A stretch of 64,000 nt of DNA. Source: Sandaracinus amylolyticus (GTDB taxonomy: Bacteria > Myxococcota_A > Polyangia > Polyangiales > Sandaracinaceae). The stretch spans positions 7,440,001-7,504,000 of the forward strand of contig NZ_CP070225.1 of assembly GCF_021631985.1 (NCBI RefSeq), written 5' to 3'. Position 1 is the first letter of the stretch. Each line of letters opens with the position of its first letter. The notes beneath the pieces are model-generated. The model was given only the letters and a program-made list of their open reading frames with translations, was not told the origin of the DNA and made no database searches. The translations under genes were made by a program, and so were the position numbers. Positions 1 through 25,464 of this stretch are shown here, piece by piece.

Positions 1-1
1 G

Positions 2-121
2 CTGCGCTGTCGGACCTGCGTGCACGACGCGACGTGCCGCGGGATGCACGTGAACTACGTGCGCGCCCACGGCTACGGCCTGATGCGCCCGATCGTCGAG
101 ACCAGCATCGCGGCCGAATGA
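2..121 (+). CDS. C-terminal end of a radical SAM protein (left-truncated)
   Basis: Only the last 39 codons lie in the window; the gene starts to the left. The fragment has a C-x2-C-x5-C-x-G motif (CRTCVHDATCRG) followed by an aromatic/Gly-rich tail. The same signature closes several complete radical SAM proteins in this window, at 1248, 10301, 14081 and 15016, where it probably binds an auxiliary Fe-S cluster. The CxxxCxxC core that would prove the family is outside the window, so the family is inferred from the tail. Its TGA overlaps the next ATG (ATGA), so the two are translationally coupled. Confidence 0.6.
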   Translation: MRCRTCVHDATCRGMHVNYVRAHGYGLMRPIVETSIAAE

Positions 122-1251
122 GCGCCGCCGAAGCCCACGCGCCGAGCACCGGGCTCGTGCTCCCGCCCGAGCACGAGGCGCCGCGCCGGCTGCTCCAGCT
201 GCGTCGGGCCGAAGCGTGGCGACTGCTCAAGGCCCACGCCGCGACCGGCGATCTCCGCATCGCGCGCCCGCTCGCCGACCTCGCGCGCAGCGCGCCCGAC
301 GACGCGGTGGACGTGCTCGCCGATCCGATCGCGAGCGTGCTCGCACGATGCGGCCGTCACGACGACGCCGCCGACGCGTGGGCGCTCGAGCTCGCGCGTC
401 GCGGTGCGCTGCCCGGGCGCCACGATCTGCACGGGAAGCACGTCGCGAATCTGGCACTGGGTGCCATCTTTTCCGGCGCGCGGATGACGCTCGCGTCGGG
501 CAAGATCGTGATCGACGGACGCACCGTCGCGCTCGGCTCGGTCGCGCCGGAGCAGTTCGTCGAGCTGCGCCCCGGCATCCGATTCGCGACCTACGACCCG
601 AACCCGCTCGCGCTGGTCGAGGCCCACCCCGACAAACGAGGCAACGCGCTCTCGCTCGGCGGTCGCGACGCGCGCGAGTGGATCGCGGCGCTGAACGAAG
701 CGCTCGCGATCGTCGAGCGGCACCTCCCGACGATCATCGACGAGATGCGTGCCCTCTCGATGGTGCTCGTGCCGGTCGGCTACGAGCCCGAGAAGCACCT
801 CTCCGCGTCGTACCGCGAGTACGTCGGCGCGTGTTACCTGACGCTGCACCCCGACGTGCGCACGATGGCCGAGGCGATCGTGCACGAGTTCCAGCACAAC
901 AAGGCGAACCTCGCCTCGTACCACGACGCGCTGCTCGAGAACGCGCTGGGCACGATGGTGCGCTCTCCGGTGCGCCCCGATCTCCGGCCGATCTGGGGCG
1001 TCCTGCTCGCGGTGCACGCGTTCGTGCCGGTCGCCGAGCTCTATCGGCGCATGCTCGCCGCGGGCGACGTTCGCATCCAATCGCGGCTCGCCGACGTGAT
1101 CGCGCGCAACGACGAAGGGCTGCGCACCGTGCGCGAGCACGCGGAGCCGACGCGCATCGGTGCCGCGCTGATCGAAGAGCTCGAGGCGCTGCACGCGACC
1201 CACCTCGCGCTCGACCTCGCGAAGCCCGCGGGTGTGTCGTGGGAAGCGTGA
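118..1251 (+). CDS. HEXXH motif-containing putative peptide modification protein
   Basis: This 377-residue cytosolic protein carries HEFQH at residues 256-260, preceded by a Leu/Glu/Ala-rich helix and followed by a Leu-rich helix. A SYREYVGACYLT-like stretch lies shortly before it. This layout matches the HEXXH putative peptide-modification family found beside radical SAM and other RiPP maturases; some members are reported as iron/2-oxoglutarate peptide hydroxylases. The ATG at 118 overlaps the previous stop. Its own TGA overlaps the GTG of the radical SAM-methyltransferase, so it sits in one transcript with two rSAM enzymes. That context supports peptide maturation rather than proteolysis. 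No precursor peptide is visible beside it; it may lie to the left of the window. Confidence 0.75.
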   Translation: MSAAEAHAPSTGLVLPPEHEAPRRLLQLRRAEAWRLLKAHAATGDLRIARPLADLARSAPDDAVDVLADPIASVLARCGRHDDAADAWALELARRGALPGRHDLHGKHVANLALGAIFSGARMTLASGKIVIDGRTVALGSVAPEQFVELRPGIRFATYDPNPLALVEAHPDKRGNALSLGGRDAREWIAALNEALAIVERHLPTIIDEMRALSMVLVPVGYEPEKHLSASYREYVGACYLTLHPDVRTMAEAIVHEFQHNKANLASYHDALLENALGTMVRSPVRPDLRPIWGVLLAVHAFVPVAELYRRMLAAGDVRIQSRLADVIARNDEGLRTVREHAEPTRIGAALIEELEALHATHLALDLAKPAGVSWEA

Positions 1252-3095
1252 TCGCGAGCGGCTGGCGAGGCCGCAAGGCGCTGGTGAAGGTCGGCTACGG
1301 GTGCAACGAGAACTGCACCTTCTGCCACACCGCCGAGGTGCGCCACATCGACGGCGCGAGCACCGAGGTCGTCGCGAAGATCCATCGCGCGAAGCAGCTC
1401 GGCCACGGCATGGTCGTGTTCTCCGGTGGCGAGCCGACGATCCGCGCCGAGCTGATGGAGTGGGCGTCGCTCACCGCGCGCCTCGGCATGGACGTGGGGC
1501 TCGTCACCAACGGGCTCGTGCTCGCCTATCCCGACAAGGTCGAGGCGCTGATCGAGCGACGCCTGCGCTACGTGTACATGTCGCTCCACGGCGTGGGCCG
1601 CATCCACGATCGACTGGTGCGCAGCGAGGCGTGGGAGGCCGCGTATCGCGCGGTGCAGAACCTCTCGGGGCGCGGCCTCGATCTCACGATCAACTGCGTC
1701 GTCACCCAGCAGAACGTCGAGCACCTGATCCCGCTCGTCGACGCGCTGCTGCCCTTCCCCGACCTGCGCCTCAAGTTCTCGATGGTGCAGCCGAAGGGTG
1801 GCGGGAAACGCCTCTTCGACGCGATCACGCCACGGGTGTCCGACGTCGCCGATCGTGCGGCGCGCGCGATCCGCCACGGCCAGGAGCAGGTCGCGAAGCG
1901 CAGCGCAGCAGGCCCGACGTTCGGGCACGACGGCATCCCGCACTGCCTGCTCCCCGGGCTCGAGCCGCTCTACGACGACCTCAAGACCCACCGCTTCGCC
2001 ACGATGTGCGACATCGGCGAGCCCGACTTCTTCCCGGTCGACGAAGCGCTCAACGTGCAGCCCGAGGACGTGTGCGGCGGGTGCCCGAAGCGCGGCCCCT
2101 GCCCCGGTCTCTTCCGCGGATACGCCGAGCAATTCGGCACGAGCGAGATCCGCGCGCCCGAGCCCGCGCCGCGCTCGAACTCGTTCACCTACACGTTCGA
2201 GGCGCAGATCGCGACCGACGCGGGCGAGGCCCACTGTCCGCTGCGCGACGGAGAGCACGGCATCATCCCGTGGGATCGCGGGCGCGAGCTCTTCGTGCGG
2301 AACCGCGCGGAGAGCGGCTATCGCATCGCGCGCTTTCGCAGCGACACCCGCGACTTCGCGGACGTCGAGATCGCGCGCACCAAACACGCGCTCGGACAGC
2401 TCTATCTCGACGTCTCGCGCAAGCCCGCGCCCGACGACTTCGCGCGTGATCTGCGCCCGCTGCGTCGCTCGACGTTGTGCGACGGATGCACCCACCGCGA
2501 GACCTGCACCGGGATGTTCGAGCCCGCGCTCGACGACGATCCGTTCACCCGCGACGACGCGCGGGTGCGCGACGTGCTGCGCGCGCTCGAGGGCGACGTG
2601 CTCGATCTCGGGTGCGGCGAGGGCCCCTACGAGGACGTGTGGGCACCGCGCGCCCTGTGCGGCCACGTGCGCTACGTCGGCGTCGATCCCCACGCCGATC
2701 TCGACGCGCTGCGCGCGCGCTGGCCGTGGGCGACGTTGGTGCGCGGCGAGGGCGAGACGTTCGTCGTCGATCGCACCTTCGATCACGCGCTGATCTTGCG
2801 GAGCTGGAACCACCTCGCCGATCCCACGGGCGTCGTCCGGCGGGTGGTCGACGCGCTGCGCGTCGGAGGGTCGCTGCTGGTCGTCGACAACGTCGCGTTC
2901 GGCCTGGCTCGTACCCGCGCCCAGACGAGCGTCGCGCACCGCGGTCCCGCGCGCTTCGAGCACTATCGCAACGACGACGCGGATCGCGCGGCGCGCACCA
3001 TCGAGAGCGCGACCGATTCGATCGCGCTGCGCGAGCGCCACGACGTCGGGCCTGGCACCGCGAACCAGTGGCTGCTGCGTTACGAGAAGCGATAG
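1248..3095 (+). CDS. Radical SAM enzyme fused to a class I SAM methyltransferase
   Basis: A 615-residue fusion. The N-terminal radical SAM core has CNENCTFC (Cys19, 23, 26) for the 4Fe-4S cluster and a SGGEPT motif for SAM binding. Two C-x2-C-x5-C-x-G motifs follow, CGGCPKRGPCPG near residue 276 and CDGCTHRETCTG near residue 411, suggesting a duplicated auxiliary-cluster domain. From about residue 430 to the end is a Rossmann methyltransferase with VLDLGCGEG near residue 451. The start chosen is GTG 1248, overlapping the upstream TGA (GTGA); GTG 1239 is an in-frame alternative. Coupling to the HEXXH gene suggests joint peptide maturation. The substrate and the methylated atom are unknown. Confidence 0.8.
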   Translation: MIASGWRGRKALVKVGYGCNENCTFCHTAEVRHIDGASTEVVAKIHRAKQLGHGMVVFSGGEPTIRAELMEWASLTARLGMDVGLVTNGLVLAYPDKVEALIERRLRYVYMSLHGVGRIHDRLVRSEAWEAAYRAVQNLSGRGLDLTINCVVTQQNVEHLIPLVDALLPFPDLRLKFSMVQPKGGGKRLFDAITPRVSDVADRAARAIRHGQEQVAKRSAAGPTFGHDGIPHCLLPGLEPLYDDLKTHRFATMCDIGEPDFFPVDEALNVQPEDVCGGCPKRGPCPGLFRGYAEQFGTSEIRAPEPAPRSNSFTYTFEAQIATDAGEAHCPLRDGEHGIIPWDRGRELFVRNRAESGYRIARFRSDTRDFADVEIARTKHALGQLYLDVSRKPAPDDFARDLRPLRRSTLCDGCTHRETCTGMFEPALDDDPFTRDDARVRDVLRALEGDVLDLGCGEGPYEDVWAPRALCGHVRYVGVDPHADLDALRARWPWATLVRGEGETFVVDRTFDHALILRSWNHLADPTGVVRRVVDALRVGGSLLVVDNVAFGLARTRAQTSVAHRGPARFEHYRNDDADRAARTIESATDSIALRERHDVGPGTANQWLLRYEKR

Positions 3096-5299: not shown

Positions 5300-6247
5300 C
5301 TACGAGAAGCGATGGAGCGCAGCGTGCGGCGCGCTCACGATCGCGCGATCGTCGAGCGACAGGACACCATCGATCACCGCGACGCGCTCCGCGCGCTCGA
5401 CGAGCACGAGGAGCCGCGCGACCGCCTCGAGCGCGAGGTCGTCGAGCCGCGCGTCGGGATGACGATCACGCGCGGTGGGCCACACCTCGGCGACGCGCAA
5501 CACGTCGCGATCGATCGTGCCTCGCAGCGAGAGCTGCACGTCTTCGAAGAGCACGAGCCGATGCGCTCCGAGCGCGTCGTCGATCGCGCGCACGAACGTC
5601 TCGTGTCGGCACCCCGGCGGACACCGCGACACCGGGCGCGCCCCGCGCCCCGCCAGGAACTGAGCGTGTCGCTCCGCGATGTGCGACGCGACCGCATCGG
5701 CGTAGGCGCTCGAGAGCGCACACGACAGCGAGCACGGGATCCACGAGACGTAGTGGAACACCGCGAGATCGAGCACGTTCAGCCGCGCTCGACCGACGCC
5801 GCCCCGCGCGATCGCGTCGAGGTTGTCGCGCGGCGGAGGGACCGCGAGGTACGCCTCGACACAGCACCGCGGATATCCGAGCAATCGCCCGAGCTCGTGA
5901 TCGTGCTCGGGCGCCGCCTCGACGCGCACCGCCTCCTCGACCCGTCGTGCGTCGCGCCCGACGAAGAGCACGCGCCCGCGCGTCGACGCCGTCTCGACCC
6001 GGTGCACCGCGTCGCGCACCACGAGCCCCAGCGCCTCGAAGCGCGCGCGCGTCGCGGCGACGTCGGCATCGCGCACCACCTGGCGCAGCAGCGGCTTGAT
6101 CCCCGCGCAGAGCGCGACCTCGTCGGCCTCACCGCTGCCCAGCGCGTACACGATCGGCCGCGCTCGCACCGCGCTCCGCGCGCGCTCGGGCGCGTCGGGC
6201 AGCGCGCGCACCAGCTCCACGACGCTCTCGACGCGCTCCGTCACCAC
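5300..6247 (-). CDS. DUF483-like protein with a GYPxCC motif
   Basis: A 315-residue cytosolic protein. Its central LGYPRCCVEAYL motif is typical of DUF483-type proteins. Further Cys residues follow (IPCSLSC and CPPGC), which could hold a metal or Fe-S cluster. The start is GTG 6247, only 52 nt from the divergent GTG of the spore-photoproduct-lyase-like radical SAM gene at 6300, so the pair may share a control region. It sits between two groups of radical SAM maturases, and a role as a partner in radical chemistry is possible but unproven. The family function is not known. Confidence 0.65.
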   Translation of the reverse strand: MVTERVESVVELVRALPDAPERARSAVRARPIVYALGSGEADEVALCAGIKPLLRQVVRDADVAATRARFEALGLVVRDAVHRVETASTRGRVLFVGRDARRVEEAVRVEAAPEHDHELGRLLGYPRCCVEAYLAVPPPRDNLDAIARGGVGRARLNVLDLAVFHYVSWIPCSLSCALSSAYADAVASHIAERHAQFLAGRGARPVSRCPPGCRHETFVRAIDDALGAHRLVLFEDVQLSLRGTIDRDVLRVAEVWPTARDRHPDARLDDLALEAVARLLVLVERAERVAVIDGVLSLDDRAIVSAPHAALHRFS

Positions 6248-6299: not shown

Positions 6300-7496
6300 G
6301 TGAGCGACCTGCGCGCCCAGCTCGTCGCACTGCTCGCGCCGCACTCGCTCGGCGACGAGGTCGTGCGCGGCGCGCGCTTCGTGAACGCGTCCACCGAGCT
6401 CGGGCTGCGCCTCACGTTCGAGCTCGCGACCCCGAACGCAGCACCGCGCATCGTCCACGTCGAGGTCGCGCCCCGCGACGAAGAGGCGCGCTACGCCGCG
6501 CGCACCGAGCGCTTCGTGCTGGGCTACCGCACCGGCACCGGCAGCGGCGGCGACCACGTCGCGCCGCACGAGGGCAAGGCGCTCTGCGACGCGATCGCGA
6601 GCGTGATCGCGCGCAACGAGCGCGAGGTGATCGCGTCGATCGCCCGCGATGCGGCAGCCGCGCGCGAGAGCCGCGACGGCTCGACGAGAGTGCGCGAGGT
6701 GCACGTCTCGTCGCTGCTCGAGTCCGCCGAGTGGCATGGCACGCGGTACTACACCGTGAGCCCCTACGTCGGCTGTCTGATCGGCTGCCGCTTCTGCTAC
6801 GCGCAGACCCGCGTCGGCATGGTGCGGCGGCTCGAGGGCCTCCCCGAGGTGCCGTGGGGCTCGTACGTCGACGCGCGGGTGAACGCGCCCGAGGTGCTCG
6901 CGCGCGAGCTCGCGTCGCTGCCTCCCGGACCGATCAAGTTCTGCCCGGTGGTGAGCGATCCCTATCACGCGATCGAAGCGCGTCTCTCGCTCACCCGCCG
7001 CTGCCTCGACGCGATCCACGACGCGACGCGCGTCTTCCCGACGATGGTGCTCACGCGCTCGCGCCTGATCGAGCGCGACGCCGCGCGCCTCGCCGCCCTC
7101 CCCGTCGCCTACGCGGGCGTCTCGTTCCCGACGATCGACGACGAAGTGCGCCGCCACTTCGAGCCCCGCGGTGCCTCGATCGACGATCGCCTCGCCACGC
7201 TCGCGACCCTGCGCGCCCACGGCGTCCGCACGTTCGCGGTGGTGCAGCCGATGCTGCCCGGCTCGATCGACGCGCTCGCCGACGCGATCGCCGCGCACGC
7301 GACCTCGGCGAGCCTCGACGTCCTCACGTCGCTCGAAGGGGCCGAGCGCGACTTCGCGGATCCCCGCTACACGGTCGCGCGCGACCCGCGATGGCAGGTC
7401 GAGCGCGCCGAAGCGGTCTCCGAGGCCCTGACCGCGCGCGGTGTGGTCCTGTGGCGCGGCGAGCTCCCGCCCGAGCTCTGCGTCGATCCGCTGTAG
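6300..7496 (+). CDS. Spore photoproduct lyase-like radical SAM protein
   Basis: A 398-residue protein. About 140 residues of unknown fold precede a radical SAM core with CLIGCRFC (Cys159, 163, 166) inside SPYVGC...YAQTR, the pattern of the SplB-like rSAM group. Later strands contain KFCPVVSDPYHAIE and VLTRS, also typical of that group. It lacks the C-terminal C-x2-C-x5-C motif of the other rSAM proteins here. GTG 6300 is chosen because a GGAG sits about 8 nt upstream; no in-frame ATG precedes it. It is divergent from the DUF483-like gene. A DNA photoproduct role is not assured, since many SplB-like proteins have other, unknown substrates. Confidence 0.75.
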   Translation: MSDLRAQLVALLAPHSLGDEVVRGARFVNASTELGLRLTFELATPNAAPRIVHVEVAPRDEEARYAARTERFVLGYRTGTGSGGDHVAPHEGKALCDAIASVIARNEREVIASIARDAAAARESRDGSTRVREVHVSSLLESAEWHGTRYYTVSPYVGCLIGCRFCYAQTRVGMVRRLEGLPEVPWGSYVDARVNAPEVLARELASLPPGPIKFCPVVSDPYHAIEARLSLTRRCLDAIHDATRVFPTMVLTRSRLIERDAARLAALPVAYAGVSFPTIDDEVRRHFEPRGASIDDRLATLATLRAHGVRTFAVVQPMLPGSIDALADAIAAHATSASLDVLTSLEGAERDFADPRYTVARDPRWQVERAEAVSEALTARGVVLWRGELPPELCVDPL

Positions 7497-7648: not shown

Positions 7649-8173
7649 ATGGCCGCGCTCGTAGGGATGCCTTCGGATCAGATCGACGCCGACGTGTCGG
7701 CGCACGCAGTGACGGTGACCGTCGACGAGTCCCTCTACCCGCTCGATGCGGTGTACGGCGCGGCCTACACGTTCCTCGATCGCTGCTACGTGCTGCTCGA
7801 TCGCGCGGCGTCGAATCGCGTGCGCATCACGCTCACGCCGAAGGGCACGACGCCCGCCGAGAGCGAGCTGCGCAATTGGGTCGGCGAGCTGCAGAACGAG
7901 CTCCTCAGCTGCGCGTGGCGCGCCCAGATCGTCCGCGACAACCGCGCGGTGATCGAGGCGGTGACGCTGCAGGCCGTGACCGGCGCGATGGGCCCGCCGA
8001 CGCTCGACGATCTCAAGGACTTCGACTTCTCCGAGGAGCCCTTCGAGGACCCGCTCGGCATCGGGCTCTCGTGGGAGGAGAAGTACAAGAAGAAGAAGGA
8101 CGAGCCCGCCGCGCCCGCGCTCGGTTCTTCGGAGGCTGCAGCGAAGCCGAGCGACGAGGGGAGCGCGACGTGA
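7649..8173 (+). CDS. hxsD: HxsD-like protein of a His-Xaa-Ser peptide modification system
   Basis: 174 residues. The first 110 match the HxsD pattern: a short strand, then SLYPLDAVYGAAYTFLDRC, a basic/hydrophobic strand pair, a helix with ELQNELL, and an Arg-rich helix with IVRDNRAVIEAVTLQA. The last 60 residues are an acidic then Lys-rich tail (KYKKKKDEP) of low complexity. HxsD proteins accompany the maturases HxsB/HxsC and His-Xaa-Ser precursors, and may act as a small partner or recognition protein. ATG 7649 has a clear GGAGG at 7640-7644. It is the first gene of the operon and its TGA overlaps the GTG of the next gene. Confidence 0.75.
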   Translation: MAALVGMPSDQIDADVSAHAVTVTVDESLYPLDAVYGAAYTFLDRCYVLLDRAASNRVRITLTPKGTTPAESELRNWVGELQNELLSCAWRAQIVRDNRAVIEAVTLQAVTGAMGPPTLDDLKDFDFSEEPFEDPLGIGLSWEEKYKKKKDEPAAPALGSSEAAAKPSDEGSAT

Positions 8174-8397
8174 GCGAGCTGCGCCTCCACCGCGAGCTCT
8201 ACCTCGCGAGCGCGATCGATCAGGCGATCGGGCTCTACGCCGCGCACGCCGAGATCACGCGGGGCGACGAAGCCGATCACGTGGTGCTGCGCATCGCGAG
8301 CGCGCGCCCCGGTCGCGCCGCGCGCGTCGCGCGCGAGCTCGGCAACTACGCGCTCGGTCTGACCATCCAGGCTCGGAAGACGGGAGCCGCGCAGTGA
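8170..8397 (+). CDS. Short second HxsD-like protein
   Basis: A 75-residue protein between the HxsD-like and HxsB-like genes, coupled to both by GTGA overlaps. The sequence (LHRELYLASAIDQAI, then VVLRIAS and ARELGNYAL) repeats the strand-helix-strand-helix layout of the preceding HxsD-like protein: ELYL aligns with SLYP and ELGNYAL with ELQNELL. It lacks the C-terminal helices and tail. I infer a diverged, truncated HxsD paralogue, perhaps a heterodimer partner or leader-binding subunit. No catalytic residues are evident. Its position and codon use leave little doubt that it is expressed. Confidence 0.65.
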   Translation: MSELRLHRELYLASAIDQAIGLYAAHAEITRGDEADHVVLRIASARPGRAARVARELGNYALGLTIQARKTGAAQ

Positions 8398-9986
8398 CGG
8401 ACACCATCGACTCGCAGCTCCCGCCCGGCGCGTTCCCGCTGCACGGCCTCCGCCCCTCGGCCACGTTCCCCGCGTTCTTCCGCTATCGCGCGCTCCCGAA
8501 GCAGCGCGTGCTGCTGACGAACCTCGAGGGCAATTTCCTCGTGCTCGCGGACGCCGAATTCCGCGCGTTCGTCGAAGGCAACGTCGCGCCCGAGAGCGAG
8601 CTCCACGCGCGCCTGCGCGACGGCAATTTCCTCCGCGCGCACTACGACACCAAGCGCGCCGCGGACGCCCTGCGACGTCGCAAGTCGTTCGTCGGCTACG
8701 GGCCGAACCTCCACATGCTGGTGGTCACGCTCCGCTGCAACGAGACCTGCGTCTACTGCCACGCGTCGCGCGCCGCGATGGACGCGGTGCACACCGACAT
8801 GACCCCGGAGATCGCCGAGAAGTGCGTCGACATCGCGCTCTCGTCGACGAGCCCGGGCATCACGATCGAGTTCCAGGGCGGCGAGCCGCTCGTGAACTTC
8901 CCGGTCGTGAAGCACGTCATCGAGTACGCGCGGAAGAAGAACGAGAGCATCGGCAAGGCGCTCGAGTTCACGATGGTCAGCAATCTCTCGTTGATGGACG
9001 AGGAGAAGCTCGCCTTCCTGCTCGAGAACCGCGTCCAGATCTGCACCAGCATCGACGGCCCCCAGGGCCTGCACGACAAGCAGCGCAAGCTCCCCGCGCT
9101 CAAGCTCGCCGATGGAACCAAGACCGGCGGCTCGTCGTGGGAAGCGTCGGTGAAGTGGATCCGGCGCATCAACGAGGAGTACGCGAAGCTCGGTCTCGAC
9201 ACGACGCTCTACCGCGTCGAGGCGCTGCTCACGACGACGCGCGAGACGCTGCCGCTCTGGAAGGACGTGGTCGATCAGTACGTCGACCTCGGCTGTCGCG
9301 CGCTCTTCCTGCGCCCGCTCGATCCCTTCGGGTTCGCCGAGAAGACCGGCCCGCGCCTCGAGTACCCGCGCGCCGAGTACCTCGACTACTACCGCAAGTG
9401 CGTCGACTACATGATCGAGCTGAACCTGAAGGGCGTTCAGGTGCTCGAGCGCTACGCGGCGATCTTCCTGACGAAGATCCTCAGCGGCGAGGACCCGAAC
9501 TTCCTCGACATCCGCAGCCCGTCGGGCGCGGGGATCGGCGCGCTCGCCTACAACTACGACGGCTCGATCTTCACGTGCGACGAAGGTCGCATGCTGCACG
9601 AGACGGGCGACGACACGTTCCTGCTCGGCCACGTGAACGACGCGACCTACCGCGGCCTCGTCGGCCACGAGACGGTGCGCGCGGTGGTGCTCGCCGGGAA
9701 CCTCGACGCCCGCCCCGACTGCGTGAATTGCGCCTACCAGCCCTACTGCGGCGTCGCCCCCAGCCACAGCCACAAGACCCAGGGGACGATCTTCGGGCGG
9801 ATGCGCGAGAGCAGCGTCTGCGCGGTCCACAAGGGAATCCAGGACTATCTGTTCGAGAAGATCGCCGATGCCGACCCCGGCACGATGGAGGTCTTCCGCC
9901 GCTGGACCACGAACCGACCGAGGGCCCATTTCATCCAGGGGACGTCTAGTAGTACACTCGCCGCGGACGCTTCACGGACGCCGTGA
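8394..9986 (+). CDS. hxsB: HxsB-type radical SAM/SPASM maturase
   Basis: A 530-residue radical SAM enzyme. Residues 20-105 resemble the HxsB N-terminal domain (FFRYRALPKQRVLLTNLEGN, then a HARLRDGNFL helix). The core has CNETCVYC (Cys115, 119, 122), FQGGEP and a typical barrel. The C-terminus is Cys-rich and SPASM-like: TCDEGR, CVNCAYQPYCG, then a late SSVCAVH. It would use SAM and electrons from auxiliary clusters to modify the His-Gly-Ser precursor encoded 36 nt downstream. The start is GTG 8394, overlapping the previous stop. The last 15 codons contain a run of rare codons and a hairpin, described separately. Confidence is high for rSAM/SPASM and good for the HxsB assignment. Confidence 0.85.
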   Translation: MTDTIDSQLPPGAFPLHGLRPSATFPAFFRYRALPKQRVLLTNLEGNFLVLADAEFRAFVEGNVAPESELHARLRDGNFLRAHYDTKRAADALRRRKSFVGYGPNLHMLVVTLRCNETCVYCHASRAAMDAVHTDMTPEIAEKCVDIALSSTSPGITIEFQGGEPLVNFPVVKHVIEYARKKNESIGKALEFTMVSNLSLMDEEKLAFLLENRVQICTSIDGPQGLHDKQRKLPALKLADGTKTGGSSWEASVKWIRRINEEYAKLGLDTTLYRVEALLTTTRETLPLWKDVVDQYVDLGCRALFLRPLDPFGFAEKTGPRLEYPRAEYLDYYRKCVDYMIELNLKGVQVLERYAAIFLTKILSGEDPNFLDIRSPSGAGIGALAYNYDGSIFTCDEGRMLHETGDDTFLLGHVNDATYRGLVGHETVRAVVLAGNLDARPDCVNCAYQPYCGVAPSHSHKTQGTIFGRMRESSVCAVHKGIQDYLFEKIADADPGTMEVFRRWTTNRPRAHFIQGTSSSTLAADASRTP

Positions 9987-9987
9987 G
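9944..9987 (+). promoter_or_regulatory. AT-rich island and hairpin before the HxS precursor gene
   Basis: Bases 9944-9957 (TCTAGTAGTACACT) form an AT-rich patch inside the end of hxsB, giving four consecutive codons (TCT AGT AGT ACA) that are rare here. Just downstream, TCACGG-ACG-CCGTGA (9972-9986) forms a 6-bp hairpin covering the hxsB stop codon. Both lie 40-80 nt upstream of the precursor ATG. The patch could be an internal promoter, and the hairpin an mRNA end or processing site that makes precursor mRNA more abundant than maturase mRNA. This is inference. Confidence 0.35.
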
Positions 9988-10022
9988 CGGGTGCTTTCCC
10001 TGGGAGCGGTAGGAGGCGGGGC

Positions 10023-10301
10023 ATGGCCGACGACGACGACGTTCTTCCGAGCTTCCGGCGCAACGCGGGCGGTCTGATGGATCCGACCGAACGCGCGATC
10101 GCCGATCGTGCGCTGGAAGAGGCCGATCTCGCCAAACCCAACACGCGAGACGACATCCTGCTGGCGCAGCACTGCTCGCACGGCTCGCATGGCTCGCACG
10201 GGTCCCACGGCTCGCACGGCTCGCACGGGTCCCACGGCTCGCACGGGTCGCACGGCTCGCACGGCTCGCACGGCTCGCACGGGTCCCACGGGAGCTGGTG
10301 A
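10023..10301 (+). CDS. His-Gly-Ser repeat RiPP precursor (HxsA-like)
   Basis: A 92-residue protein in two parts. Residues 1-49 are a polar, acidic leader (ADDDD near the start, a helix with ERAIADRALEEADL) without a signal peptide. Residues 50-92 are H-C-S, then thirteen exact H-G-S triplets, then a single Trp. His-Xaa-Ser triplet arrays define the HxsA precursors of radical SAM systems, and the flanking genes are HxsD-like, HxsB-like and a second rSAM. AGGAGG sits just upstream of ATG 10023, suggesting strong translation. The TGA overlaps the next ATG by one base. The repeat could be cross-linked, bind metal, or both. The only Cys (51) lies at the leader/core boundary. Confidence 0.85.
   Translation: MADDDDVLPSFRRNAGGLMDPTERAIADRALEEADLAKPNTRDDILLAQHCSHGSHGSHGSHGSHGSHGSHGSHGSHGSHGSHGSHGSHGSW
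10170..10298 (+). repeat. Tandem 9-nt coding repeat for His-Gly-Ser
   Basis: Fourteen tandem 9-nt units: one His-Cys-Ser and thirteen His-Gly-Ser, followed by a Trp codon. Ser codons alternate TCG/TCC with a final AGC, Gly codons GGC/GGG, and His is CAC except one CAT. The patterned synonymous changes point to expansion by duplication of blocks of several units while the amino acid triplet stayed invariant. Confidence 0.9.
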
Positions 10302-11368
10302 TGACGAGGGCGGTGCTCAGCTCTCCGTCGAGCAGAGCGGAGGCCGAGCACTCCTCGATCGACGAGCGCATCGCGCGCAAGGACGAGCGCGTGCACGTGC
10401 TCACCGGCGCGGTGTGCAACAACAACTGCGTCTTCTGCATGGAAGAGGATCGTGACGCTCGCTACGTCACGAACAGCCAGACCGACGACGCGCTCGTGCG
10501 GTTCATCCTCGAGCAGAAGAAGGGCGCCGAGGAGATCTGCTTCACGTCGGGCGAGCCCACGACGAACCCTCGACTGCCGCACTGGGTGCGGTGGGCGAAG
10601 GAAGCGGGGATCCGCCGCGTCAGCGTGATGACGAACGGGCGCTCGCTCTCGTACGAGAAGTACGCGCGCATGCTGATCTCGGCGGGGATGAACCGCTTCT
10701 ACGTCAGCATCCACGGCCACACGCAGAAGCTGCACGACGGACTGACGCGCACGCCCGAGAGCTTCGACCAGACGGTCGCGGGGCTCGACGTGATCACGAA
10801 GTACAAGCGGTATGGAGTCGAGCTCCACACCAGCACCGTGATCACGAAGCGCAATCTCCCGCACATGGGAGAGATCTATCGATTCCTGCGCGCGCACGGC
10901 GTCGATCAGGTCGTGTTCAACGTGATGCAGGCCAATGGCCGCGCGAACACGTACTTCGAGCACATCTTCCCGACCTACACCGAGATCGCCGAGACCGCGC
11001 GGGTCTTCCTCGAAGAGCAGGCGAAGACCGAGCCGCGGGTGATGGCGTTCCTGGTCGACATCCCGCTGTGCACGACGACGAAGCTGCCGGACTTCAACCG
11101 CGGCTACGTCGAGAGCTACGTGCACTACGAGCCCGCGGCGAACGCCGAGAAGCTGGTGCCCGCAGAGGCGCTGCTCGGACGAAAAGAGGCGCTCGCCGAT
11201 CAGAGCGAGACGCGCGAGCTCGTGGCGATCCGCCGCGCCGACCTCGACGACTCCGAGCGCCAGAAGCGCGCGGAGTGCGCGACCTGCAAGCACGAGAAGA
11301 GCTGCGAAGGCGTCTGGGGCAACTACCTCAAGCGCTACGGCTGGGACGAATTCGTTCCGGTTGTGTGA
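10301..11368 (+). CDS. Second radical SAM maturase of the HxS operon
   Basis: A 355-residue radical SAM protein with CNNNCVFC (Cys39, 43, 46), TSGEPT and a C-terminal CATCKHEKSCEGVWG (C-x2-C-x5-C-x-G) auxiliary motif ending in GWDEFVPVV. It occupies the place where canonical systems encode HxsC. Its core wording (SIHGHTQKLHDGLTR, SVMTNGR) is instead closest to the other CxxC-tailed rSAM proteins in this window. ATG 10301 is chosen because GGAG lies 6 nt upstream; GTG 10298 is an in-frame alternative. It overlaps the precursor stop by one base. Likely role: a second modification of the His-Gly-Ser core. The reaction is unknown. Confidence 0.85.
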   Translation: MTRAVLSSPSSRAEAEHSSIDERIARKDERVHVLTGAVCNNNCVFCMEEDRDARYVTNSQTDDALVRFILEQKKGAEEICFTSGEPTTNPRLPHWVRWAKEAGIRRVSVMTNGRSLSYEKYARMLISAGMNRFYVSIHGHTQKLHDGLTRTPESFDQTVAGLDVITKYKRYGVELHTSTVITKRNLPHMGEIYRFLRAHGVDQVVFNVMQANGRANTYFEHIFPTYTEIAETARVFLEEQAKTEPRVMAFLVDIPLCTTTKLPDFNRGYVESYVHYEPAANAEKLVPAEALLGRKEALADQSETRELVAIRRADLDDSERQKRAECATCKHEKSCEGVWGNYLKRYGWDEFVPVV

Positions 11369-14080: not shown

Positions 14081-15016
14081 TCAGTCCGGCTCGGCTCTGA
14101 CCTTCGCGATGATGGCGTCGCGATCGACGAACACCGGGTGCAGCTCGCCGAGGTCGTAGTGATCGCCCAGCTCGAAGAGCCCGCCGCAGATCGAGTCGAG
14201 CGTGCACGAGCGACAGACTTCGCTCTTGGGATGGCGGAAGTCGGTCTGTCGCACCGTTCCCTTCTCGTCGAGGAAGTGCACGATGCGCTCCTCGCCCTTG
14301 ATGATCTTCCGGGTCTCCGTCGAGCAGTGCGCGAACTCGGTCATGTAACAGAGCGGCACGCGCTCGACGCGGAAGGTGCGACCGGTCGAGTGCAGGAACC
14401 GCAGCGCGCGCGCGAGCGAGAGCTCGAAGTCCGCGAGGCGATGGGCGGTGTCGCGGTTCGTCTCGGCGCGGCCCATCGAGGGGTCGAGGTTGTTCCACAC
14501 GAAGTGGCGCAGGAACGGGAAGCGCCCGACGAAATAGCGGACGTTCTTGTCGAGGTGATCCGCGTTGAAGCGATTGATCACCGTATTGATGTTCACCGTC
14601 GCGCCCACGCGCCCGAGGTTCTCGAGCGCGTCCATCGCGAGCGCGTGGCTGCCCTTCACGCCGGTGAGGAAGTCCTCGAGCTGCTCGTCGCACGAGTGGA
14701 TGCTGACGTGGAAGTGGCGGAGCCCGGCCTCGTAGTACGACTCGGCGAGGCCGGGCTTCGCGAGCCGTGATCCGTTGGTGATCATCCGGACGTGGAGCCC
14801 GCGCGCGACCGCGTGCTTCGTGATGTCGGGGATCAGATCGGAGAGCGAGGGCTCGCCGCCGGTGAGGATGATCCCGAAGTAGCCGCGCTCCGCGAAGTCG
14901 TCGACCGCGCGCAGCGCGGTGTCGAGGTCCAGCATGTAGCCGCTCGCCGGGTTCGAGCAGAAGCGGCAGTACTGGTTGCACCCGCGGACGACCTGCAGAT
15001 ATCCGATGTTCGCCAT
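14081..15016 (-). CDS. Radical SAM protein with C-terminal CxxC motif
   Basis: A 311-residue radical SAM protein with CNQYCRFC (Cys13, 17, 20) very near the N-terminus, LTGGEPS, HVSIHS and a late CRSCTLDSICGG (C-x2-C-x5-C-x-G) motif, so it probably holds an auxiliary cluster. It is the last gene of a three-gene minus-strand operon. Its ATG 15016 shares one base with the stop of the preceding rSAM gene (TGATG), so the two are translationally coupled and may act together. The likely substrate is the twin-arginine-signal protein at the operon head or an unseen peptide. The core is clear; the function is inferred. Confidence 0.8.
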   Translation of the reverse strand: MANIGYLQVVRGCNQYCRFCSNPASGYMLDLDTALRAVDDFAERGYFGIILTGGEPSLSDLIPDITKHAVARGLHVRMITNGSRLAKPGLAESYYEAGLRHFHVSIHSCDEQLEDFLTGVKGSHALAMDALENLGRVGATVNINTVINRFNADHLDKNVRYFVGRFPFLRHFVWNNLDPSMGRAETNRDTAHRLADFELSLARALRFLHSTGRTFRVERVPLCYMTEFAHCSTETRKIIKGEERIVHFLDEKGTVRQTDFRHPKSEVCRSCTLDSICGGLFELGDHYDLGELHPVFVDRDAIIAKVRAEPD

Positions 15017-16074
15017 CAGCCGTCCTCTTCGCGTTCGAACAGCGCGGGGAGGATCTCGCGCAGCGCCTCGCCGCTCTTCGCGCTGCGAGTCGCCGCCTCG
15101 TTCACCCCGCGGCGCGCGCGCCCGTACATCGGCAGCGCCTTGCGCGCGGTCTGCACCGGCTCGTGCACGCTGCGCGCGCGGATCGGCAGGAGCTCGCCGG
15201 CGCCGACGAAGAGCGACGCGACCGGCTCGTGATCGGCGCCGCTCGGGCGATCCTCGCGCGCGCGCAGCTCGTCGCCGTCGAAGCGCGCGAGATAGATCGG
15301 ATCGATCCCCGGGCACACCTCGCGCGCTGCGCACCCGTCGCAGCGCGCGTGGAAGGTGCGCGCTCCATCGCGCTCGGGATGCGCGATCGAGCGCGACGCG
15401 AGCGGCCCGAGCAGACAGAGCGGCGCACCGCTCACGTACGCGCGCAGCCCGACACGACGCGCGATCTCGAGCGCGTGCAGCGCGAACGGCAGCGCGAGCG
15501 CGAGGCGCGGATAGACACGATCGAAGTGCTCCGACGCGACACCGCGGGCGAGCGGGACCGCGACCTGCCACGCCTCGACGCCGCGCGCCTGGAGCAGCAT
15601 CGGGATCTCGGAGAGCACGCGGAAGTCGCTGCGCGTGAGCACCGTCGTCGCGACCACGCGAAGCCCTGCGGCGCGCGCCGCGGCGACCGCGTTCCACAGC
15701 ACGTCGAAGCTGCCCTCGCGGCCGGTGTGGTAGTCGTGCACGCGCGCGTCGGCGCCGTGCAGCGAGACGTGCACGTCGGTGAGCCCGGCGCTCGCGAGCG
15801 AGCCCGCGATCGCCGCGAGACCGTGCCCGTTGGTCTGCACGCCGATCGCGGTGAAGCCCACGTCGCGCGCGGCGCGCACCGCGGCCTCGAGCACGTCGGG
15901 CGCGAGCGTCGGCTCACCACCGCCGAGCGTGATCGCGCTCGAGGCCTCGCGCAGCGCGCGCAGCCGATCGAGCGAGGGCACCGCGAGCTCGGCGCGCGGC
16001 GCATCGTCGCGCAGCCCGCAGAAGATGCACGCGTTCGAGCAGGTCGATCCGAGCGAGAGCGTCGCGCGTCGCAT
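15016..16074 (-). CDS. Radical SAM protein, partner of the downstream rSAM
   Basis: 352 residues: CSNACIFC (Cys12, 16, 19), LGGGEPT, DVHVSLHG and a CDGCAAREVCPG auxiliary motif about residue 240. An 85-residue Arg-rich tail with no clear fold follows. ATG 16074 lies 27 nt after the stop of the twin-arginine-signal gene; no good Shine-Dalgarno is visible. It is the middle gene of the operon, overlapping the next rSAM by one base. Two different rSAM enzymes in tandem suggest two sequential or cooperative modifications. Confidence 0.8.
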   Translation of the reverse strand: MRRATLSLGSTCSNACIFCGLRDDAPRAELAVPSLDRLRALREASSAITLGGGEPTLAPDVLEAAVRAARDVGFTAIGVQTNGHGLAAIAGSLASAGLTDVHVSLHGADARVHDYHTGREGSFDVLWNAVAAARAAGLRVVATTVLTRSDFRVLSEIPMLLQARGVEAWQVAVPLARGVASEHFDRVYPRLALALPFALHALEIARRVGLRAYVSGAPLCLLGPLASRSIAHPERDGARTFHARCDGCAAREVCPGIDPIYLARFDGDELRAREDRPSGADHEPVASLFVGAGELLPIRARSVHEPVQTARKALPMYGRARRGVNEAATRSAKSGEALREILPALFEREEDG

Positions 16075-23607: not shown

Positions 23608-25464
23608 ATGATCGTCCTCGGTTACCACGGAGGCATCGAAGGCCCGTTCGCGAGCGGTCGCGCGGGACGCGACGCCGCGGCCGCGATCGTCGACGAGGGG
23701 CGCGTGGTCGCAGCGTGCGAAGAAGCGCGCCTGGCCCGCGCGGCGCGCGGCGCCACCGTGCCCGAGCGCGCGATCCGTCACTGCCTCGACGCAGTGGGCC
23801 TCGCCACGCTCGACGGCGTCGACCTCGTCGCGTGCTCGCACGCGAGCGATCAGCGGTGGCGATCGGAGATGGTGACGCAGAGCCGCGAGCGACTCCCCGT
23901 GTTGACCCGCGCCGCGATGGGCGCGGCGCTCGCGGCGCTCCGCGGCGCGGAGCGCGCGCTCGGCGGAGACGAGCACGAGCGGCGCCTCCTCGAGCAGCGG
24001 CTCGGCGCATCGATCCCGCCCGAGCGCTTCGTCGCGGTGCCCCACGACGTCGCTCACGCCGCGAGCGCGTTCTTCACGTCACCGTTCGATCGCGCGCTCT
24101 GCTTGGTCGCGGACGCGCACGGCGAGAGCGCGGCGACGAGCGCGGCGATCGGTCGCGGCACGCGCATCGAGGTGGTCGATCGCATCTACGCGCCCGACAG
24201 CCTCGGCGCGCTCTACTCGCTCTTCGCGCGTTATCTCGGGTTCGAGCCGGGCGAGGAGCACGAGGTGATGTTGCTCGCCGCGCACGGCGATCCCTCGCAC
24301 CACCGGCGCTTCTTCCGGCGCGTGGTGCAGATCCGGCGCGACGGGATCGCGTCGGTCGATCCCGCGCTCGTCGTGCGCCTCGCGCTCCGCGATGCGATCG
24401 CAGCGCGTCTCCTCGGGGGCGGCGCCGCGCTCTATCCCCGCGCGATGATCCGCGCGCTCGGCCCGGCGCGGCTCCCCGGCGAGCCCCTCACCGGACGTCA
24501 CGCCCACATCGCCGCGGCGCTGCAGGAGGCGCTCGAGCTCGCGCTGCTCGCGTCGCTCGCGACGCTGCGCGCCCGCACCGGCGAGCGCGATCTCTGCCTC
24601 GCGGGTGACCTCGCGCTCAACGCGGCGGCGAACGCGCGCATCGCGCGCAGCGGGCTCTTCGATCGCATCCACGTGCAGCCGGCGGCGCACGACGCGGGCA
24701 CCGCGCTCGGCGCCGCGCTCTACGCGCTGCACCACATGCTCGGGATCGGTCGCGAGGGGAGCGCGATGCCCACGCCGTTCCTCGGCGCGGCCGCCGACGA
24801 CGTGCTCGTCGATCGTGCGCTCCTCGACTTCGCCGATCACGTGCGCGCGACCATGCCCCGTGATCTCGAGGGCACCGTCGCCGAGGCGCTCGCCGCGGGG
24901 CGCGTCGTGGGTTGGCTCCAGGGCCGCGCGGAGTGGGGCGCGAAGGCGCTCGGCGCACGCAGCGTGCTCGCCGATCCGCGAAGGGCCGAGAGCCGCGCGC
25001 GGGTGAGCGCGATCCTCCAGCGGCGCGAGCACGATCGATCGTTCTCGCCCACGGTGCCGCTCGAGCTCGCGCACGTGTGGTTCGACATGACCGGCGTCGA
25101 CGAGAGCCCGCACAAGCTCTTCAGCGTGCCGGTGCGCGCCGAGCGCGTCGCGCGCCTGCCCGCGGTCACCCACGTCGACGGCACCGCGCGCGTGCAGACG
25201 GTCTCGTGGGAGCAGAGCCCGCGCCTCCACGCGCTCCTCCACGCGTTCGGCGCGATCACCGGCGTGCCGGTGCTGCTCAACACGAGCTTCCGCGTGGGGC
25301 GCGAGCCGCTCGTGAACCTCCCCGACGACGCGCTCCGCGCCTTCCTCGCGAGCGACCTCGACGCGCTGGTGATCGGCGATCGCTGGATCGAGCGTCGCGG
25401 CGACGCGCTCGCCCCCGAGACACCGAAGCGCGTGCGCGAGGCGCACGCGACGCCGTTCGTGTGA
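23608..25464 (+). CDS. Carbamoyltransferase (NodU/TobZ family)
   Basis: 618 residues with both domains of the family. The N-terminal Kae1-like part ends with HDVAHAASAFF and later LCLAGDLALNAAANARI. The YrdC-like C-terminal part has GRAEWGAKALGARSVLADPR and VLLNTSFRVGREPLVN. These enzymes make carbamoyl-adenylate from carbamoyl phosphate and ATP and transfer the carbamoyl group to a hydroxyl of a sugar, antibiotic or other metabolite. ATG 23608 has AGGAG upstream, with an operator-like palindrome just before it. No biosynthetic cluster surrounds it, so the acceptor is unknown. Confidence 0.85.
   Translation: MIVLGYHGGIEGPFASGRAGRDAAAAIVDEGRVVAACEEARLARAARGATVPERAIRHCLDAVGLATLDGVDLVACSHASDQRWRSEMVTQSRERLPVLTRAAMGAALAALRGAERALGGDEHERRLLEQRLGASIPPERFVAVPHDVAHAASAFFTSPFDRALCLVADAHGESAATSAAIGRGTRIEVVDRIYAPDSLGALYSLFARYLGFEPGEEHEVMLLAAHGDPSHHRRFFRRVVQIRRDGIASVDPALVVRLALRDAIAARLLGGGAALYPRAMIRALGPARLPGEPLTGRHAHIAAALQEALELALLASLATLRARTGERDLCLAGDLALNAAANARIARSGLFDRIHVQPAAHDAGTALGAALYALHHMLGIGREGSAMPTPFLGAAADDVLVDRALLDFADHVRATMPRDLEGTVAEALAAGRVVGWLQGRAEWGAKALGARSVLADPRRAESRARVSAILQRREHDRSFSPTVPLELAHVWFDMTGVDESPHKLFSVPVRAERVARLPAVTHVDGTARVQTVSWEQSPRLHALLHAFGAITGVPVLLNTSFRVGREPLVNLPDDALRAFLASDLDALVIGDRWIERRGDALAPETPKRVREAHATPFV

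Follow-up and report, generated by a model that had tools for sequence, protein, structure and literature searches.

Five-gene His-Xaa-Ser operon of the HxsA4/HxsC4 subtype in Sandaracinus amylolyticus: a near-invariant His-Gly-Ser precursor core and a wider set of co-occurring enzymes

Does a compact cluster of five coupled genes in the genome of Sandaracinus amylolyticus represent a new kind of His-Xaa-Ser (Hxs) radical S-adenosylmethionine (rSAM) peptide system, and where does that system end? The cluster lies at positions 7649-11368 of the 64,000-nucleotide stretch analyzed here, referred to as the window (assembly GCF_021631985.1, contig NZ_CP070225.1, positions 7,440,001 to 7,504,000; C1:7440001-7504000 of the host genome, which has 10,963,797 bases in two contigs). 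Judged by its protein families, the operon is a His-Xaa-Ser rSAM peptide system distinct from canonical Hxs. What is new here is a wider set of co-occurring enzymes, to which the operon appears to belong, and the near-invariance of the His-Gly-Ser (HGS) core of the precursor.

All five genes are on the forward strand. The first, hxsD (7649..8173, 174 aa), is followed by a short relative, HxsD_rel or E (8170..8397, 75 aa, GTG start), by hxsB, encoding a radical SAM/SPASM maturase (8394..9986, 530 aa, GTG start), by hxsA4, encoding the precursor peptide (10023..10301, 92 aa), and by hxsC4, encoding an rSAM enzyme with one auxiliary-cluster (twitch-like) Cys set (10301..11368, 355 aa). The reading frames bear out the gene order given in an earlier sequence-only reading (HxsD-like, short HxsD-like, HxsB-like, His-Gly-Ser precursor, second rSAM). 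Its statement that every junction overlaps except for a 36-nt gap before the precursor agrees with the frame coordinates, which give, in order, two 4-nt overlaps, the gap (9987-10022) and a 1-nt overlap. The start of hxsC4 was taken as ATG; a GTG at 10298 is also possible and would make the hxsA4/hxsC4 junction a 4-nt overlap.

NCBIfam profiles were used to assign the proteins to families. Four of the five exceeded their cut-offs, HxsD_rel (NF038315, 64.1 bits against 41), HxsB (TIGR03978, 542.4 against 370), HxsA4 (NF038313, 115.5 against 55) and HxsC4 (NF038332, 630.6 against 500), and because of these scores the five-gene layout is assigned to the HxsA4/HxsC4 subtype already catalogued there, as a real operon and not as a new kind. 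HxsD scored 49.7 bits on TIGR03976, 0.3 under the cut-off of 50, with an E-value of 3.5e-13. It had been proposed that HxsD appears twice, and profile comparison indicated that HxsD_rel is indeed homologous to HxsD (probability 90.7, E 1.3e-6).

The system shares with canonical HxsABCD (TIGR03979, TIGR03978, TIGR03977, TIGR03976) an HxsB over the cut-off, the HxsD domain, a His-x-Ser repeat precursor and two rSAM enzymes. However, the second rSAM, described earlier as not obviously HxsC, scored only 88.8 bits on the canonical HxsC model (cut-off 267.9) and the precursor 22.6 bits on the canonical HxsA model (cut-off 121.65). The middle residue of the repeat is fixed as Gly, HxsD_rel is additional, four more enzymes co-occur, and the leader, as the sequence-only reading had noted, has no signal peptide when judged by eye. 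The suggestion of a distinct, possibly undescribed subtype therefore stands in part: the scores set the system apart from canonical Hxs, but NCBIfam already holds models for HxsA4, HxsC4 and HxsD_rel, and all three window proteins are above the respective cut-offs. The outcome is in between, with a second rSAM that falls short of HxsC in a layout that belongs to a catalogued subtype. To the subtype as catalogued, the wider set adds three proteins, designated MT, X and R3, that are below the cut-off of every NCBIfam model among the matches listed, and an aKG-HExxH protein covered by a generic domain model only.

The bioinformatic definition of the His-Xaa-Ser system HxsABCD is reportedly due to Haft and Basu in 2011, as cited in PMC9062424. 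In the literature searched, which left subscription journals mostly outside and was not queried by the repeat, no paper with the names HxsA4, HxsC4, HxsA2 or HxsA3 was found; at that level the term undescribed still applies, the NCBIfam models notwithstanding. No product of a His-Xaa-Ser system reported since that definition was found in the same literature. Among the papers listed, Hxs was a subject of PMC9062424 and PMC8446631 only; in the accessible part of PMC8446631, it is present as gene names. In a PADLOC search, HxsB and HxsC4 matched only generic viperin-type rSAM entries, and the three remaining operon proteins had no match.

The distribution of the subtype was surveyed in 317 genomes of the class and 14 control genomes, with the NCBIfam cut-off as the threshold for HxsC4, E ≤1e-12 for HxsA4 and E ≤1e-70 for HxsB. 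HxsC4 was over its cut-off in 70 of the 317 class genomes, HxsA4 was found in 89 and HxsB in 104, 102 of these above the cut-off; none of the three was over its cut-off in the control genomes. HxsB was present in 86 of the 89 HxsA4 genomes and in 69 of the 70 HxsC4 genomes, and since HxsA4 and HxsC4 are nearly always accompanied by HxsB, the subtype is considered real on the evidence of these matches. The three genomes with HxsA4 and without HxsB were G135 and G113, which are 86% and 72% complete, and G260, where the match is a repeat without a following Trp in a seemingly different protein (locus L144).

Gene layouts were compared in 120 fetched loci, 80 around HxsC4-like matches and 40 around HxsA4 matches, in which D, E, B, A and C were annotated. 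Besides the window, 18 of the 120 loci (L059 and L060 being near duplicates) contained D, E, B, A and a C4-like gene in one stretch. Most of these had the window's order, D-E-B-A-C4; C4 was reversed and a few kb away in L068, L076 and L078. Partial arrangements were A-C4 alone (e.g. L039, L046-L048, L050, L051), D-E-B-A without C4 in the stretch (e.g. L120, L125, L129) and D-E-A without an adjoining B (L149, L153). It was also considered that the repeat protein might stay unmodified, with a structural or storage role, and that the rSAM genes act on something else. A match to Pfam Collagen (30 bits, cut-off 27.2) can be cited for it, but this match reflects only a composition with Gly at every third residue, for which reason a collagen-like reading was rejected, and the joint presence of HxsA4 and HxsB in 86 of 89 genomes, together with the 18 complete stretches, makes such a protein highly improbable.

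The extent of the system was examined next to the operon. Open reading frames of at least 170 aa within 6 kb were clustered after 11 near-duplicate loci had been dropped, and the clusters pointed to further candidate genes; the largest clusters were set aside, as they look like antisense artefacts of GC-rich genes. Four genes were followed across genomes. The first, MT (1275..3095, forward strand, start codon uncertain), encodes an rSAM-methyltransferase fusion 59% identical over residues 2-608 to protein P0006, which matches Pfam Radical_SAM and Methyltransf_23. None of the best 25 NCBIfam models was above its cut-off for the window MT, and the best NCBIfam match of the fusion was HxsC4 (91.1 bits against 500). 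MT is 4.5 kb before hxsD in the window and directly upstream of hxsD in several loci (e.g. L041, L058, L064). In some genomes only one half of MT matches, and there the halves may be separate genes. The gene for an aKG-HExxH-type peptide beta-hydroxylase (HExxH; 118..1251, forward strand) scored 85.3 on TIGR04267 against a cut-off of 40 and has the motif HEFQH. It overlaps by 4 nt the gene for the rSAM protein R3 (forward strand), of which only the 3' end (1..121) is within the window; the whole gene extends from window position -1723 to 121 (L274:14277-16121). No listed NCBIfam model was above its cut-off for R3, the best being HxsC4 (121.2 against 500). The gene for X, a twitch-type rSAM protein (14081..15016, reverse strand), lies 2.7 kb after hxsC4; none of the best 25 NCBIfam models was above its cut-off, the best being HxsC (88.1 against 267.9).

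At a threshold of E ≤1e-60 across the 317 genomes, MT was found in 94, comprising 92 of the 104 genomes with HxsB and 2 of the 213 without it (Fisher p 1.6e-63). X, R3 and HExxH were then scored in 40 HxsB-positive and 40 HxsB-negative genomes, at least 90% complete and mostly one per genus. X and R3 were each present in 40/40 HxsB-positive and 1/40 HxsB-negative genomes, the common exception being G148, in which R3, X and a further rSAM gene, Y, stand side by side; HExxH was present in 36/40 and 2/40, respectively. X was also found in 52 of the 64 remaining HxsB-positive genomes, and altogether it was sought in 45 of the 213 HxsB-negative genomes. Among the genomes with HxsB, X occurred in 92 of the 97 that have A4, C4 or MT and in 0 of the 7 that lack all three (p 3.7e-8), and for this reason X is considered, from its matches, to follow the A4 subtype and not HxsB in general. 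Five genomes without a found HxsB have an A4, C4 or MT match; four of them (G101, G113, G135 and G239, 65-86% complete) have X and G260 does not. Within family f11 of the sample, X was present in 18/18 HxsB-positive and 0/21 HxsB-negative genomes, compared with 14/18 and 10/21 for a control carbamoyltransferase gene (23608-25461).

Genes of the set are also found near each other. X was within 20 kb of hxsA4 or hxsB in 19/40 genomes, MT in 17/38, R3 in 12/40 and HExxH in 12/36, and the carbamoyltransferase control in 3/27, the host and its same-genus relative accounting for two of these. On contig 13 of G144, HExxH, the C-terminal half of MT, hxsB, hxsA4, R3, X and Y are contained in about 11.5 kb, with hxsD and HxsD_rel among them (L131). 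The matches to X were at least 43% identical. The best match to R3 was at least 54% identical outside second copies, although in about half of the genomes an unbroken alignment covers roughly the first 300 residues only. Apart from those in the host genus and in G155, matches to HExxH were 40-54% identical and often limited to the domain; orthology appears less sure for HExxH than for X and R3.

Several observations weigh against an enlarged system. The 80 sampled genomes were hand-picked, after the MT result and before those for X, R3 and HExxH, and the Fisher p-values ignore phylogeny. The carbamoyltransferase control was present in 27/40 HxsB-positive and 16/40 HxsB-negative genomes (p 0.024), from which the HxsB-positive genomes are somewhat closer to the host in general. 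A gene just upstream of hxsD for a PA0069/Rv2578c-like rSAM protein (6300..7496, forward strand; NF033668, 86.7 against a cut-off of 360), intended as the first control, itself co-occurs, in 29/40 and 1/40 genomes, and is within 20 kb of hxsA4 or hxsB in 5/29. Its membership is uncertain: it is either a member of the system or a lineage effect, and because it co-occurs, some of the signal may be due to lineage or life style. That leaves one good control gene, which is few. X was more than 20 kb from hxsA4 or hxsB, or on another contig, in 21/40 genomes, and it was missing from five genomes with HxsB and A4, C4 or MT (G036, G120, G151 and G182, 81-89% complete, and G134, 95%). MT was missing from 12 of the 104 HxsB genomes and HExxH from 4 of the 40 sampled, and 43 of 78 loci with an HxsC4-like gene had no precursor in the fetched stretch.

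These observations could be explained if only the five-gene operon is the system and MT, X, R3 and HExxH come from other rSAM or ribosomally synthesized and post-translationally modified peptide (RiPP) pathways kept by bacteria with large genomes. The co-occurrence of the PA0069-like gene, the absence of the extra genes from the 20-kb surroundings of hxsA4 or hxsB in at least half of the genomes, and a run of 8 related rSAM genes in the host region (window -9.5 kb to 16.8 kb, HxsB and HxsC4 included), where other pathways may sit, all agree with this. However, X tracks the A4 subtype and not HxsB as such, it separates HxsB-positive from HxsB-negative genomes within family f11, MT is in 92 of the 104 genomes with HxsB against 2 of the 213 without it, and the array in G144 is contiguous; the restriction to five genes is thus regarded as unlikely. 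The operon appears, from these comparisons of genomes, to be part of a larger set with MT, X, R3 and the aKG-HExxH hydroxylase. The borders implied by the sequence-only reading were too tight, as the system co-occurs across genomes with four further genes, of which three are complete in the window, and the A4 subtype is set apart from other HxsB systems by gene content and not by scores only.

The precursor core consists of HCS, 13 HGS units and a final Trp (10170-10298). The 9-nt units span 10170-10295 and are followed by TGG and the stop codon; the core has 14 His. A DNA pattern of three HGS units occurred at one place only in the host genome, the precursor, and the reversed-pattern control gave 0. 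The precursors of the host and of G315, a genome of the same genus, agree in all 85 aligned residues although many codons are different, and the number of HGS units is 13 in the host and 11 in G315. Ratios of nonsynonymous to synonymous substitution rates (dN/dS) between the two genomes were 0.08 for B, 0.077 for C4, 0.062 for X, 0.17 for MT, 0.22 for HExxH, 0.21 for E (HxsD_rel) and 0.35 for D, values that point to all seven genes being kept in use. The identical residues despite changed codons, the differing unit number and the low dN/dS of hxsB and hxsC4 indicate that selection acts on the protein and not on a mere DNA repeat.

The core was further compared in 82 precursor frames, which were picked by the repeat pattern, and hence selected for H-x-S units, and which come in part from closely related genomes. 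Of their 1029 internal units, 1020 were HGS, 4 HAS, 4 HGQ and 1 HSS; the first unit was HCS in 65 frames, HAS in 12, HGS in 4 and HSS in 1. In 80 frames Trp directly follows the last unit; it does not in L144 and in L148, which lies at a contig end. The frames had 9 to 20 units, and in one case 53. Leaders were far more variable than cores. In this set of frames the HGS core is thus almost invariant. The frame with 53 units is at L131:7929-8624 of G144. In L139-L143, L145 and L152 the HGS core stands behind leaders that by eye resemble exported proteins or signal peptides; one core thus seems to come in both an exported and a cytoplasmic version.

The variation in unit number raises the possibility that the core is epimerized, methylated or hydroxylated without cross-links and serves as a His-rich metallophore or metal buffer whose capacity is set by the number of repeats. 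The range of 9 to 20 units and once 53, the 14 His of the window core and the membership of MT and aKG-HExxH in the gene set are consistent with such a role. However, it gives no account of Ser at every third position, nor of two rSAM families that usually occur together, and is therefore considered doubtful.

Both rSAM enzymes of the operon have the SPASM/twitch pattern of CxxxCxxC and conserved auxiliary-cluster Cys in their sequence columns. In HxsB, the rSAM Cys115/119/122 and the C-terminal Cys443/446/452/476 are present in 95-97% of 40 alignment rows; in HxsC4, Cys39/43/46 and Cys257/326/329/335 are conserved in at least 98% of 66 rows, and the second Cys set is predicted to suffice for one auxiliary cluster. 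A second signature, N[NS]SAM, was present in 28 of the 78 loci with an HxsC4-like gene above 200 bits, and 26 of these 28 had no H-x-S precursor in the stretch. Many of the N[NS]SAM genes (e.g. L070-L073, L077, L081, L082, L086, L094) are above the NCBIfam cut-off, and the HxsC4 model may merge two enzyme groups.

The structural model of HxsD has the order beta-alpha-beta-beta-alpha, with a mean predicted local distance difference test score (pLDDT) of 82.1, and its C-terminal tail has the consensus DDPLGIA.SWEEKY. In the HxsD_rel model (mean pLDDT 96.3), strands and helices follow in the same order. A winged helix like that of the RiPP recognition element was considered for HxsD and rejected in view of these folds. 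Foldseek returned no PDB match at E ≤0.001 for either protein. With VIA-align the best match of HxsD_rel was aIF2-alpha (Z 8.8, middling by the tool's scale, root-mean-square deviation 1.7, 68 aligned), with KH and Pcc1 domains near.

The best PDB match of HxsB was the rSAM protein 5wgg (E 1e-20), which we take to be the thioether enzyme CteB. The anaerobic sulfatase maturase (anSME) structure anSMEcpe, 4k37, also matched (E 3e-10), over the rSAM part and most of the SPASM part. D396 of HxsB, the Asp after a SPASM Cys, aligns with an Asp of anSME that is presumably its catalytic base. These similarities suggest the main chemical rival to the cross-link proposed below: HxsB might act like an anaerobic sulfatase maturase and oxidize each core Ser to formylglycine, an aldehyde that may react with His or bind metal. 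It is in keeping with this that anSMEcpe is among the nearest solved structures and that conservation reaches at least 97% for D396 but only 70% for its Cys. However, the better PDB match is another rSAM protein, an Asp at this position is not unique to anSME, and the reading accounts neither for the strict HxS spacing nor for the requirement for His. Conversion to formylglycine is accordingly judged improbable.

Taken together, the genes are best read as a RiPP-type maturation system of the HxsA4/HxsC4 subtype with enlarged membership, which is considered probable; this confidence does not extend to the cyclophane step. The precursor consists of an acidic leader and a highly repetitive HCS(HGS)nW core, with HxsB (SPASM) and HxsC4 (one auxiliary cluster) as the putative core radical enzymes. 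Because two homologous relatives are encoded together, HxsD and HxsD_rel may form a heterodimer that holds or threads the precursor for the rSAM enzymes. HxsB and/or HxsC4 would act repeatedly along the core, on His and Ser, since the middle residue is Gly and has no side chain; the bond or oxidation would therefore fall on His, Ser or the backbone. The hydroxylase, acting on His, and the methyltransferase would make later changes, and the product would be a stiffened, His-rich and probably metal-binding polypeptide.

The likeliest reaction, which is proposed only tentatively and by analogy, is a C-C bond joining the imidazole of His to the beta carbon of Ser (i, i+2), giving a three-residue cyclophane in each unit. 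The HxS spacing fits the i/i+2 pattern. According to the part of PMC11002830 available, three-residue cyclophane-forming enzymes (3-CyFE) connect positions i and i+2, examples being Phe-Ser for MscB and C2(His)-Cbeta for HaaB and YhhB, and three-residue cyclophanes are known for Phe-Ser and His-Ala/Arg motifs. The accessible text of PMC12636437 describes a HEXXH domain, fused to an rSAM domain, that beta-hydroxylates Asp and His of a peptide already bearing a cyclophane. Given these precedents, a His-Ser cyclophane with later hydroxylation and methylation is the most economical guess.

The triceptide enzymes MscB, HaaB and YhhB resemble the window system, as far as the same portion of PMC11002830 describes them, in an aromatic residue at i, a second site at i+2 and SPASM-type rSAM enzymes, and the cyclophane system of PMC12636437, within the text seen, shares an aKG-HExxH partner. 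The window system differs in its long uniform repeat, and neither HxsB nor HxsC4 belongs to a cyclophane family by score, which weighs against the cyclophane. Among the best 25 of ~60 families, the scores and cut-offs were DynA 45.9/450, YhhB 45.4/445, GrrM/OscB 36/310 and XyeB 34.6/450 for HxsB, and DynA 42.5/450, AmcB 41.7/425 and GrrM/OscB 39.6/310 for HxsC4. In TvgAB, which makes a poly-cyclopropylglycine peptide, one rSAM enzyme likewise modifies a short repeat many times, but on Val methyls according to the part of PMC9062424 at hand; cyclopropylglycine (TvgB chemistry) was rejected, as the HGS core has no Val. That part of the same paper places HxsB and HxsC in other clusters of the sequence similarity network (2 and 33), merely as putative maturases.

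In its fullest and more doubtful form, the proposal is that a dedicated set of at least five rSAM enzymes (HxsB, HxsC4, X, R3, MT) and the aKG-HExxH protein turn the (HGS)n polypeptide into a ladder of His-Ser cyclophanes and afterwards hydroxylate and methylate it. Their genes would often be scattered but inherited together as a single system, and the result would be a repeat polymer RiPP and not a small molecule. The wider set and the near-invariant core make an Hxs product directly testable. The HGS subtype offers the simplest test case, with near-invariant units and a repeat count that multiplies any mass shift, and because the central Gly has no side chain, His and Ser are left as the only possible sites of a side-chain bond. 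X, R3, MT and HExxH indicate the genes to supply to an expression host; with just hxsB and hxsC4, an experiment might fail because these genes are missing.

Other genes of the host region were also noted. The gene for the rSAM protein Y (15019..16074, reverse strand) adjoins X, and its membership is uncertain: it co-occurs in 36/40 HxsB-positive and 1/40 HxsB-negative genomes at a loose threshold of E 1e-20, at which the matches include HxsC4 itself. Between MT and hxsD, a DUF483 protein with several Cys is encoded at 5303-6247 on the reverse strand (26.9 bits, cut-off 25). Outside the window, at -6218 to -3909 (L274:9782-12091, reverse strand), a B12-type rSAM is fused to a twitch rSAM domain, which scored best on HxsC4 (96.5 bits); this gene belongs to the run of 8 related rSAM genes.

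A DNA scan for six HGS-like units over 84,980 species genomes gave at least 115 stretches, and 80 loci were read. Some of these encode other repeats, HGT, HGR or HGW. Of the 80, 29 also have an HxsB-like frame of at least 200 bits, and because several of these are from Elusimicrobia, HGS cores are not confined to Polyangia. In L162, L164, L167, L168, L174 and others, from Elusimicrobia and one Patescibacteria bin, HGS repeat proteins ending in W, Y or RGGWC accompany HxsB-like frames. Two contigs titled Klebsiella pneumoniae metagenome-assembled genome (MAG), L206 and L212, carry HGS arrays ending in W, one of them with rSAM genes of Hxs type; these look like mislabelled metagenome bins.

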